The notes under the pieces are model-generated. The model had not been told where the DNA came from. It saw only the letters and a program-made list of their open reading frames with translations, and ran no database searches. A stretch of 64,000 nt of DNA from Chelatococcus caeni (lineage in GTDB: Bacteria > Pseudomonadota > Alphaproteobacteria > Rhizobiales > Beijerinckiaceae): NCBI RefSeq assembly GCF_014196925.1, contig NZ_JACIEN010000002.1:620001-684000 (forward strand). Reading direction: 5' to 3'. Each line of letters opens with the position of its first letter. Position 1 is the first letter of the stretch. Of the stretch, positions 2,342 to 63,726 are shown one piece after another. The translations under genes were made by a program, and so were the position numbers.

Positions 2342-2418
2342 GGCGGAGTAGCTCAGCTGGTTAGAGCAGCGGAATCATAATCCGCGTGTCGGGGGTTCGA
2401 GTCCCTCCTCCGCTACCA
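2342..2418 (+). tRNA. tRNA-Met (anticodon CAT), elongator type
   Basis: This is a full cloverleaf of 77 bases with an encoded CCA end at 2416-2418. The anticodon stem GCGGA/TCCGC closes the loop ATCATAA, so the anticodon is CAT. The T-arm carries GTTCGAGT. The overall form matches elongator tRNA-Met of alphaproteobacteria; tRNA-Ile2 with lysidine is the other CAT tRNA but looks different. The 3' end is the prophage attachment site. The last bases, from about 2409, are supplied by the element, so the tRNA stays intact after integration. Confidence 0.95.
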
Positions 2419-4006
2419 CTTCTATAGCCGAAACTCCGGATGGCCAGATCTGCTGCCCTGTCAGGGCGGTCAGTACACCCATGATCCGGATCTCATAAGG
2501 CTCGCGCGCCGCGCGCGGCATCACGATAACGCTGTCGACGACTTCGCGCAGCGGTGCGACGATCTCCCAGGGCAGTTCCTTGCTGCCGCTCATGATCATC
2601 CCGAGCTCGGCAACGTTCTGGCGATAGCGCTCGATCGCCTGGGGATGCAGCTCCACAACATTAGTGTCGCTGCCGGCAAGCCTCAGTTGTGCGTTCAGAT
2701 CCTCGCGCTCGGCCTTAAGCTCTGCCATACGCGCCGCGACGTCATCCTTTTCCACCGTGCCGTCGGCAAGGGCGTCGACGAGCCTCTTGATCGACGTGTC
2801 GACTTCGGCAAGCCGCCGTTCGACGTTGGCCCGTGAGCGGCGCGCGTCAGCTTCCAAGGCTCGCCTCTTGGCCTGATACCGCTTGAGGTAGGCCGCGATG
2901 ACGTCAGGGTCGGCGAGCTGCTGCCGAAGCGCATCCAGAACGATACGCTCGACCTTCTCGATGTAGTAGCGACCGCGATTGGAGCACGAGCCGCTCTCCT
3001 TGAACGTGCTGCAGATGATGCGCTGACCGCTACGGTCACTGCCGGAGATGACCATGCTGCCGCCGCAGCACCCGCACTTGAGAAGGCCTGAAAGCATCCT
3101 CTTTGTCCGCGGCTCTTTACGCGTCACGTCCCGCGTCCTTTCCGCCTTGCGCTGGATCGCTGCCTCTGCGTCGCCGTCCTCAACTATGCGCAGGTGAGGA
3201 GCGTCGGCATAGCGCCATTCCGATTCGGGATTGACCCGCGAGATGCGCTTGCCCGTGTCCGGGTCGAGCACCATGCGGACCCGGTTCCAGACGATCTGGC
3301 CGCGGTAGAGCGGGTTCTGGATGATGCCGTGCCCGCGCGCCTTGTTGCCGTTGATCGTCGAGGCGTTCCAGGCGCGGCCACGCGGCGGCGGAACGCCGTC
3401 CTTGTTGAGCATGGCGGCGATTGAGCGCGGCGAGGTCCCCCTGCGGTAGAGGCCGAAGATGCGGCGCACCACCTCGGCCTCTTCCGGGACGATCTCGAGC
3501 TCGCCCGGCTTGCCCGGGATCGGCCGATAGCCATATGCACGGCCGCCGGCATGCCGGCCGTCGCGGATCACGCCATCCATGCCGCGGCGCACCTTGTTCG
3601 CCAGATCGAGCAGGTAGAGGCTTCCGAGCATGCCACGCACGCCGATCTGCACCGGATCGGCCGCGCCGTCGTGCACGGCGATAATTTTCACGCCCTGGAA
3701 CGTGAGGCGCTTGTAGAGGCCGGCGAGGTCTTCCTGGTCGCGCGAGAGACGATCGAGGGCCTCGACGATCAGGATGTCGAAGGCCTGCGCACGCGAGGCC
3801 TCTATCAGGCGCATCAAGCCGTCCCGGCCGAAGATGGATGCGCCGGAGCGCGCCCGGTCGTGGAACGTGGCGACAACTTCGTACCCACTGCGCTCGGCGA
3901 AGGTACGGCAGAGCGCCACCTGGTCGTCGATGGACCGGTCCCGCTGAAGGTCAGTCGAGAACCGGGCGTAGACGGCGGCGCGGGTTCCTCGAGCGTGTCT
4001 GGTCAT
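2375..4006 (-). CDS. int: Large serine recombinase, phage integrase
   Basis: This enzyme integrates and excises the prophage by a serine-linked double-strand exchange. Its 543 residues show a resolvase domain (about 9-155) with the nucleophile Ser17 in YARFST, and a recombinase domain (about 160-290). A zinc ribbon with Cys311, Cys313/314, Cys333 and Cys342 follows, then a coiled coil (about 370-445). The frame runs into the tRNA: residues 530-533 (VVAE) come from the att core and the last ten, ending PPTRGL, from host tRNA DNA. In the excised circle the same frame would continue into 63061-62957 and give a 567-residue protein with a different tail. A secretion of early-left genes lies upstream on the same strand. 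Confidence 0.96.
   Translation of the reverse strand: MTRHARGTRAAVYARFSTDLQRDRSIDDQVALCRTFAERSGYEVVATFHDRARSGASIFGRDGLMRLIEASRAQAFDILIVEALDRLSRDQEDLAGLYKRLTFQGVKIIAVHDGAADPVQIGVRGMLGSLYLLDLANKVRRGMDGVIRDGRHAGGRAYGYRPIPGKPGELEIVPEEAEVVRRIFGLYRRGTSPRSIAAMLNKDGVPPPRGRAWNASTINGNKARGHGIIQNPLYRGQIVWNRVRMVLDPDTGKRISRVNPESEWRYADAPHLRIVEDGDAEAAIQRKAERTRDVTRKEPRTKRMLSGLLKCGCCGGSMVISGSDRSGQRIICSTFKESGSCSNRGRYYIEKVERIVLDALRQQLADPDVIAAYLKRYQAKRRALEADARRSRANVERRLAEVDTSIKRLVDALADGTVEKDDVAARMAELKAEREDLNAQLRLAGSDTNVVELHPQAIERYRQNVAELGMIMSGSKELPWEIVAPLREVVDSVIVMPRAAREPYEIRIMGVLTALTGQQIWPSGVSAIEVVAEEGLEPPTRGL
2407..2432. other. Left attachment site (attL)
   Basis: It contains the 13-base core at 2407-2419, which is the end of the tRNA, and the phage half-arm CTATAGCCGAA at 2422-2432. 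That arm is the exact reverse complement of TTCGGCTATAG at 63037-63047 beside attR. Rejoined, the two arms flank the core 28 bases apart, making a 50-base attP. The centre of symmetry falls on CC at 2407-2408. Confidence 0.8.
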
Positions 4007-62266: not shown

Positions 62267-62920
62267 CTACTCCGGGCGCTCCGGCGGCGGCACGATCGCC
62301 AACATGTCGTCGGGCAGTGGGCGTTGCAGCTCGCGGGCGATCTCCCACGGCGCCGTCATCCACGTCTCGACCTCTTCGGCGTCTGTGAGGATCACCGGCA
62401 TGGCCTTGGGATGGATCGGTGCGACCACAGCGTTTGGCGGGCAGGTCAAGAAGCCATAAAGCTCAAAGTCTCTCTCGCCGTCCCGCACCTTCTTGACGCC
62501 GCGCCACGGCGCCCAAATGCCTGCGAAGAACATGATCGGCCGCTCATCGCGGTGTGCGAACCAGGCGTTCGGTGTCCGCTGCCCCTCGACCTTGGCCGCC
62601 GGGTTTGGCTCGGCGAACCTGGAGAACGGCACGACGCAGCGGCTCTCGGGGCCGAGCCACCGGCGCCAGTGCGGCGAGCTCGTGTTGCGGATGTTAGTCA
62701 CGCCGGGGTCGTAGTTTTTGATGAAGGCCGGCGGCGAGGGCATGCCCCAGGTCGCCATGACCATCTCACGCTCACCGTCCGCCCCGACGCGGACGACAGG
62801 TGCGAGCGTGCCGGGATAGATGTCGCGCGACGGTTCGTTCCAGCCGCTTCGGTCGACCATGCCGCGCGTAAGGTCAAGGATCGCTTCGCGGTTGCTCCGG
62901 ACATTGTAGAGATTGCACAT
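62267..62920 (-). CDS. SOS response-associated peptidase-like (SRAP / YedK-HMCES)
   Basis: SRAP proteins crosslink through Cys2 to abasic sites in single-stranded DNA and protect them. This 217-residue protein starts MCNLYN, so Cys2 is exposed after Met removal. Asn76 (TNIRNTSS), Glu104 and His170 (PIHPKAMPVIL) complete the site. ATG 62920 is chosen for this reason and has GGAG upstream; the frame is open to 62956. In the excised circle it would lie directly after int, 36 bases behind its stop, in one transcription unit. Confidence 0.93.
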   Translation of the reverse strand: MCNLYNVRSNREAILDLTRGMVDRSGWNEPSRDIYPGTLAPVVRVGADGEREMVMATWGMPSPPAFIKNYDPGVTNIRNTSSPHWRRWLGPESRCVVPFSRFAEPNPAAKVEGQRTPNAWFAHRDERPIMFFAGIWAPWRGVKKVRDGERDFELYGFLTCPPNAVVAPIHPKAMPVILTDAEEVETWMTAPWEIARELQRPLPDDMLAIVPPPERPE

Positions 62921-62956: not shown

Positions 62957-63061
62957 TCAAGCGGCCAGTTCGGCAACCTCATTCGGCGCGCCGAACCCGC
63001 GCCACAATCCGAGGTCAATGATTTCAACGGCTTGCGTTCGGCTATAGCGGCCGAAACGGGC
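62957..63061 (-). CDS. Alternative C-terminal coding tail of the integrase (excised form)
   Basis: This is not an independent gene. When attL and attR are rejoined, integrase residues 1-533 read in frame into this segment, which codes for 34 residues and then TGA at 62957-62959. The tail begins ARFGRYSRTQAVEI and ends GAPNEVAELAA. In the prophage it is fused instead to a decayed host frame. The LAA end resembles the ssrA degron. Confidence 0.75.
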   Translation of the reverse strand, partial: ARFGRYSRTQAVEIIDLGLWRGFGAPNEVAELAA

Positions 63062-63073
63062 CTCCGCTACCAC
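63037..63073. other. Right attachment site (attR)
   Basis: It contains the phage arm TTCGGCTATAG (63037-63047) and the core CCTCCGCTACCAC (63061-63073). Identity with attL starts exactly at 63061/2407. Host DNA begins after about 63062. Confidence 0.8.
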
Positions 63074-63245
63074 CTTTCCCCACACCCCACGCACGCCGTT
63101 CGGATAGGCCGTCTCCCCGAGGAGGGCATTGAGCCGGCCGGCGATCTCGACCTGGACCCCGCCCGGCTTCGAGGGATCGCGAGACGACCAGCCTGTCGAT
63201 CTCGCGGTCGAGTTCTCCCATCCTGGGTTGGAGCCGGCTCGGCAC
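63063..63245 (-). pseudogene. Decayed serine integrase C-terminus in host DNA
   Basis: Read towards the tRNA, the frame VEIAGRLNALLGETAYPNGV matches IRIMGVLTALTGQQIWPSGV of the present integrase in pattern, and both end VVAE at the att core. A second frame just upstream has GELDREIDRLV, a typical integrase coiled-coil piece, so a frameshift separates them. An older related element probably used this tRNA before. Confidence 0.6.
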
Positions 63246-63726
63246 GCAGCTTCTCGATGATCGCGTCGTCGTCGGGATAGCTCCGGAAACCGCCGTCGGC
63301 GTCGACGACGCTCGTCATCCCGAGGCTGTTCCGCTCGCGCATGCAATGGCGGGACGAATTGATCTGGTACTCGCAATCCAGCTTCGGCCCCTTTGGCCAG
63401 CGGCGAACAGAGGATCGTCGCATTGGGCTGCGCCGGCAGCAGCCTGGTCGGATTGCCGGCGTCATCTCCTGAGACCTCTATGACCGAGCGATGGCACGGT
63501 ACGCGCCTCGCCACGATGTTCCGGGGCAGGAATCCGTCTGCGGCGGCAATCGGCCCGCAAGATCGGCACTTGCGCAGCAGCTTCCGCGCCGCAGCACGTT
63601 CGCCAACCCGCTAGAACCATCACGCGAAAAGCAGGTGGCAAGCGTTGCGACCCGGTGAGAGCGCCGCTACGAAAGACTCCTGCCATTTCGGGTATCCGCT
63701 CAACCTGGTTTGGAAGGAGACGTGCA
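63246..63726. other. Host stretch with no intact gene
   Basis: No intact gene is supported. A minus-strand frame reads [20 protein letters not shown] and later fragments, perhaps further decayed mobile-element genes with frameshifts. The last 30 bases carry the ribosome site of the next gene. Confidence 0.4.

Follow-up and report, generated by a model that had tools for sequence, protein, structure and literature searches.

Predicted exchange of the C-terminus of a large serine integrase upon phage integration: a possible stability switch in Alphaproteobacteria

Introduction

Serine integrases serve widely as tools for genome engineering, and to our knowledge none of them has been described as changing upon integration. 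A prophage in the genome of Chelatococcus caeni raises the question of what becomes of such an enzyme when the phage attachment site is situated inside the integrase gene itself, and what the two resulting forms of the protein might mean for the phage. The region analysed, hereafter the window, is a stretch of 64,000 nucleotides (contig NZ_JACIEN010000002.1, positions 620,001 to 684,000). It contains a contractile-tailed prophage, with a portal protein, a major head protein, a tail sheath and a baseplate found among the 20 proteins scanned (features in table 1).

Table 1. Features of the prophage and its attachment sites in the window.
Feature	Position	Strand	Basis or remark
tRNA-Met (CAT) gene, attB target, left prophage end	2342..2418	+	ARAGORN
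Prophage form of int (large serine integrase, 543 aa)	2375..4006	-	Pfam, phrog_95 integrase
attL core CCTCCGCTACCAC, 13 bp	2407..2419		at the 3' end of tRNA-Met
Putative crossover dinucleotide CC (GG on the int strand)	2407..2408
attP inverted repeat, one 11-bp half CTATAGCCGAA	2422..2432		within int codons
SRAP gene	62267..62920	-	Pfam SRAP; start M-C-N-L-Y from sequence
Free-phage Int tail codons, 34 residues ending VAELAA, and stop	62957..63061	-	similar tail in L162
attP inverted repeat, other 11-bp half TTCGGCTATAG	63037..63047		within tail codons
attR core, second copy of the 13-bp CCTCCGCTACCAC	63061..63073
3'-terminal remnant of another, related integrase (..GGVQVEIAGRLNALLGETAYPNGVRGVWGK-VVAE)	63074..63178, outer limit approximate	-	abuts attR

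An attachment site within the integrase gene

The int product contains the Pfam domains Resolvase (E = 5.7e-22), Recombinase (1.9e-22) and Zn_ribbon_recom (1.8e-13), in keeping with the initial annotation, made from the sequence alone, which regarded the protein as a serine integrase. Ser17 near the N-terminus, presumably the catalytic serine of large serine integrases, is invariant in 15 of 15 aligned sequences, and a profile of the int relatives matches the solved structures of the SPbeta, TP901-1 and A118 integrases. When the two prophage ends are rejoined at the core, the resulting attP measures 50 bp, with perfect 11-bp inverted arms (TTCGGCTATAG ... CTATAGCCGAA) 28 bp apart and the GG of the int strand (GG/CC) at its centre, i.e. 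a short attP with arms as is typical of large serine integrases. The int coding sequence contains this attP in its entirety, and the putative crossover bases fall within the int frame, as had been proposed. Of the 53 attL/attR pairings tried, among them that of the window, 46 have matching arms (at least 8 of 17 positions, with the centre fixed at the GG position). In the circular phage the SRAP gene directly follows int in the same direction, and integration parts the two.

Two C-termini for one integrase

The prophage form of Int ends VVAE-EGLEPPTRGL, with Glu533 followed by ten residues (EGLEPPTRGL), because the last ten int codons lie antisense within the tRNA-Met gene. Since the tRNA dictates this end, the prophage Int cannot carry the tail of the free phage. 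In the frame that crosses the rejoined core, 34 other residues come after Glu533 (VVAE-ARFGRYSRTQAVEIIDLGLWRGFGAPNEVAELAA); they end PNEVAELAA, with a stop at 62957 and a total of 567 aa. Both ends had been deduced in the initial annotation; the 543-aa reading frame agrees with the former, and the latter was recovered when the reading was repeated and has a similar counterpart in nature.

This counterpart is L162, a viral contig (IMG/VR 3300011102_000211) with an undivided attP and an integrase 81% identical to that of the window. The L162 integrase comprises 569 residues and ends ARSSRYSRTQVIEIIDLGMWRGFGRPNEVAELAA (..NEVAELAA), and the window's predicted tail can thus be regarded as natural. 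The tail codons of L162 and the window differ by nine synonymous and six non-synonymous differences (4, 3 and 11 changes at codon positions 1, 2 and 3, respectively), the last eight residues are identical despite three synonymous changes, and the DNA beyond the stop is unrelated. The same design is found in two named free phages, namely Rhizobium phage RR1-A (VVAG-ERFEQSPQIILGRFVA, ending GRFVA) and Microcystis phage Mae-JY30 (VVAE-VRSNPSPPFRFGVIAA, ending GVIAA). In ten related tail pairs, 52 of the 91 changes located beyond the attP arm affect third codon positions (p = 2.7e-6), and 31 of 67 changed codons are synonymous, compared with the 24% expected. The notion that the free-phage tail is a translated and selected C-terminus is supported, and, as far as sequences can tell, the exchange of the Int C-terminus at each integration and excision is real and conserved. 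Note that prophage-annotated integrases of this family carry host-encoded C-termini (EGLEPPTRGL-like), not the end of the integrating enzyme.

Distribution among relatives

Some integrase match (E <= 0.001) occurs in 266 of 397 genomes of the family sample, and a match at E <= 1e-120 in 21 of 397 genomes of the order sample (the C. caeni genome included). The named genome loci examined for a tRNA at the int end were the best 80 of 188 relatives, including representatives of Methylocystis, Mesorhizobium, Bradyrhizobium, Chelatococcus, Bosea and Rhodobacter. A tRNA was called at the int end in 62 of these best 80 loci; int runs into it in the same frame in 58 of the 62, giving ends of the VAxEG[LF]EPPT type, and in another frame in the remaining 4. 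Among 80 viral contigs scanned, the same-frame run-in was seen in 17 of the 18 with a called tRNA. Judging by these gene ends, the design with attP inside int is widespread in Alphaproteobacteria. The target is not always tRNA-Met, as the gene overlapped in L143 is tRNA-Thr(CGT); L143 and its fellow relative L220 end QEGFEPPTPSLRMRCSTS. Two integrases (L025 and L030) stop ahead of the core, and no tRNA was found adjoining the prophage relatives L144-L147 (the 37-45% group).

Terminal alanine is enriched in the tails of the free form

The VAELAA end had prompted the proposal that integration removes a possible ssrA-like degron. We assembled 58 free-phage tails, of which 43 were rebuilt from attL/attR pairs and 15 are contiguous. 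Alanine is the last residue in 34 of the 58, and 18 end AA (11 and 8, respectively, of the 15 contiguous tails). With clustering at 50% identity as the sole handling of relatedness, the tails fall into 32 clusters, 17 of which have a majority of terminal alanines, compared with 16 of 136 background proteins (Fisher 1.5e-6); for AA the figures are 9 of 32 clusters and 5 of 136 proteins (Fisher 1.2e-4). The background is small, consisting of the 136 annotated CDS in 50 kb of each of the RR1-A and Mae-JY30 records.

The signal is tied to the frame of the integrase. Read in int's frame, 21 of 35 tails end with alanine (12 with AA) and their lengths range from 14 to 47 residues with a median of 21, whereas the two other frames give terminal alanine in 2 of 35 and 4 of 34 cases (together 6 of 69; Fisher 4.5e-8) and lengths between 1 and 238. 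In three integrases the core is read in a different register, and their own-frame tails end LHLVA, FRLVA and RRAQ; the tail of L223, whose pre-tail end is of the other-register type, ends ARAA. A second viral scan, directed at more distant relatives, yielded terminal alanine in 14 of 19 tails and AA in 10 of 19 (unclustered). A chance frame as the origin of the tail is ruled out by L162, the frame control and the third-position bias.

In the largest group of close tails the final alanine is kept in nine of nine cases while the preceding residue takes five identities, which points to recognition of the carboxyl end. The terminal alanine is encoded by each of GCT, GCC, GCA and GCG, and each of the three stop codons is used, so the signal resides in the protein; overlap with the start of a next gene (GCATGA) as the source of the alanine is ruled out by the same variation.

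The ending is not universal. No majority of terminal alanines was found in 15 of the 32 clusters, with ends such as KSL, WRS/WAS, RSG, STP and PRR; a Chelatococcus asaccharovorans tail homologous to that of the window ends LDLD/LDFD, and some tails have lost an early stop and extend to 39-47 residues. An enrichment of -A/-AA endings specific to the integrase's own frame is supported by the sequences compared. Of the proposal made for the window, the replacement of VAELAA by PPTRGL stands; such ends are enriched, but an ssrA-like end is not common to all tails of the family.

Composition of the tail set

Eight pairings were dropped from the count as their arms failed or as they were second candidates for one int, namely (with their ends) G340 (SVA), G087 (DFD), G145b (ELV), G256b (GLQ), G134b (LRL), G276b (SFA), G586b (LVA) and G301 (DAA). 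G173A and G145a were retained despite arm scores of just 7 and 6, respectively; nine retained pairs lie on separate contigs and are supported by arms alone, and G276a spans contig ends. A further 21 core matches had no assignable int (L071-L075, L077-L080, L083-L085, L087, L088, L114-L116, L118, L124, L125 and L136). Several of them resemble degraded copies of the tRNA or fortuitous matches in host DNA, and L124, L125 and L136 do have an int, the tail there being that of an adjacent or duplicated site; alanine in the usual frame is found in 2 of the 21, the frame being uncertain and some of the sites being chance or decayed. Another seven ends in named genomes look free (L243, L247, L260, L279, L285, L295 and L298; terminal alanine in 2 of 7) and may be tandem junctions.

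From the first viral scan we omitted L163 (degenerate and attL-like), L171 and L218 (running off the contig), L228 (contig end), L238 (a copy of L237) and L240 (ending FCH). The second viral scan gave 58 new loci, of which 48 were read and the other ten repeat first-scan contigs; 24 were flagged as free, and L324 (20 stops), L326 and L338 (copies of L234 and L165, respectively) and L339 and L350 (prophage-type ends) were dropped. When 37 left-out rows (the dropped pairings, the unassigned core matches, the free-looking ends in named genomes and L240) are added as separate units, the excess of terminal alanine becomes weaker, at 25 of 69 (p = 5.6e-5), and that of AA likewise (p = 0.003).

A possible switch of integrase stability

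With attP placed in the 3' end of int, we hold it to be the probable reading, though with considerable reserve, that the -AA tail of the free Int is most likely a ClpXP-type degradation signal, lost on integration and restored by excision. In the free phage, int would encode a flexible tail ending -AA that most likely marks Int for ClpXP-type proteolysis. Integration at tRNA-Met would replace the tail by EGLEPPTRGL and leave an untagged Int in the lysogen, and excision would give Int its tail back. Int would then be short-lived both during infection and after excision, which would limit integration and re-integration, and the Int produced by the prophage could persist long enough to excise it together with a directionality factor. 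Since the candidate degron is encoded in the attP-bearing coding DNA, which integration deletes and excision regenerates, excision would automatically disarm Int. Degradation of the tail, the protease responsible and the consequences for the phage life cycle are inferred. The recurrence of this layout in numerous phages suggests that integration serves as an integrase-stability switch; whether a whole alphaproteobacterial family of serine-integrase phages uses integration as a reversible switch of this kind, with excision disarming Int and limiting re-integration, seems to us evenly poised. If true, this would offer a simple protein-level explanation for directionality in time, and natural pairs of Int forms, as well as serine integrases that target tRNA genes, would be at hand for examining it.

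An AlphaFold2 model of the L162 integrase, made with 34 relatives, has a mean pLDDT of 83.6, and the only segments below 50 are residues 1-3 and 523-569, the latter holding attP and the tail; the terminal -AA of VAELAA thus sits on a tail predicted to be unstructured in this model. The host encodes ClpX, and its tmRNA carries the predicted tag ANDNYAPVAAAA, which ends AAAA and not LAA. In Sinorhizobium and Caulobacter the stability of CtrA is controlled by its C-terminal residues, C-terminal alanines being a known determinant in the class (PMC4433202). The tmRNA and sspB genes adjoin each other in the host genome (L098 and L379; G000:C3:327344-328314).

The tail might alternatively be a functional element of the recombinase that makes contact, for example, with a partner, with the coiled coil or with the directionality factor, its loss altering activity or direction and not stability. 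We consider this unlikely, yet the most serious competitor. A hydrophobic-G-x-aromatic motif (type IIxLGxW), which a bare -AA degron would not need, lies upstream of the alanine in 28 of 83 tails when a loose pattern is applied; many free-form integrases of a more distant group (L321-L333, L344 and L356) have a C-terminal motif of the type I-I-x-L-G-R-W-x-x-A-A, and the window's tail a weaker IIDLGLW. In Mx8, moreover, integration gives int a new 3' end and modifies specificity without inactivation, according to a review (PMC6070905). The body of Int is, however, predicted to end at about residue 522 with a disordered tail beyond it, and a terminal alanine conserved behind five different residues argues for the end itself as the part recognized. 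It is highly improbable, and we disfavour the idea, that the tail is a mere by-product of the overlap between attP and int, with the alanine coming from chance or composition: integration does inevitably alter the end of any gene that overlaps its own att site, several tails are long or devoid of terminal alanine, and the unassigned core matches rarely have it, but the frame control, the second data set, the excess of synonymous changes and the LVA ends of two integrases using another frame all speak against this. Recognition of the alanine by another protease or adaptor (ClpAP, Tsp or Lon), with the same biological outcome, appears the least probable, for although the ends -CA, -SA, -FA and -RA are looser than -LAA, nothing specific separates the proteases and the host has ClpX, SspB and the AAAA tmRNA tag.

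Comparison with known systems

The integrases of the Myxococcus phages Mx8 and Mx9 are tyrosine recombinases, whereas the enzyme of the window is a serine recombinase; the two systems are alike in that attP lies within int and host DNA supplies the new C-terminus. The Mx8 attP is located in int and integration creates a new int 3' end, an arrangement termed a switch, with Mx9 following a similar principle; the passages concerned mention no terminal -AA degradation signal, whereas the free tail of the window ends -AA (PMC6070905). The initial annotation had pointed to mycobacteriophage BPs as the parallel. The attP of BPs and its relatives is located in the repressor frame, attB is at a tRNA, and the free form of the repressor has an ssrA-like -LAA/-XXXAA end that is lost on integration, while the integrase carries a tag of its own that the integration described does not remove (PMC9262239, PMC8092301). 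The parallel stands at the sequence level in that an ssrA-like end of the free form is lost at integration (VAELAA giving way to PPTRGL in the window). In BPs, however, the switched gene and the seat of attP is the repressor, in the window it is int, and the BPs integrase is of the tyrosine type while the window has a serine recombinase; as to the architecture with attP in int, Mx8 and Mx9 are the closer precedent.

The window's system shares with the large serine integrases of A118, TP901-1, SPbeta, phiC31 and Bxb1 the protein domains, an attP of about 50 bp, inverted arms and a short core. As far as we know, attP lies outside int in all five and Int is left unchanged by integration. The system of the window works like the Mx8 and BPs types combined, although its enzyme class places it outside both. 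Among the literature matches listed, none describes a serine integrase whose gene contains attP or whose degron is removed by integration, which leave the subscription literature mostly uncovered. If our reading is true, two features so far seen in phages with tyrosine integrases, attP inside int and a degron lost on integration, would be joined in serine integrases.

Tandem insertions and double cores

The remnant integrase at the right end of the prophage, which in a wider delimitation spans 63074-63514 on the minus strand, reads in frame across attR into the tail of the window's phage, and with one integrase fused in this way to the tail of another element, two elements have integrated in tandem at the window's tRNA. 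Related elements are also arrayed in tandem at a single tRNA-Met in other genomes (L044-L046 and L057 at G055:C1 640501-729557; G173:C82, G230:C3 and G305:C1), and in such arrays the tail of the next element provides the C-terminus of an int. A second serine integrase of the C. caeni genome (L151; G000:C1:40051-41616) has a similar tRNA-type end, VVAGAGFEPATFRL. Finally, two att cores in a row occur at the int 3' ends of L136, L256, L265, L275 and L319 (e.g. ..MVAGDRYSAKPTFEDSGGRMVAGEGLEPPTPGL), which looks like the incorporation of a former att site into the gene.
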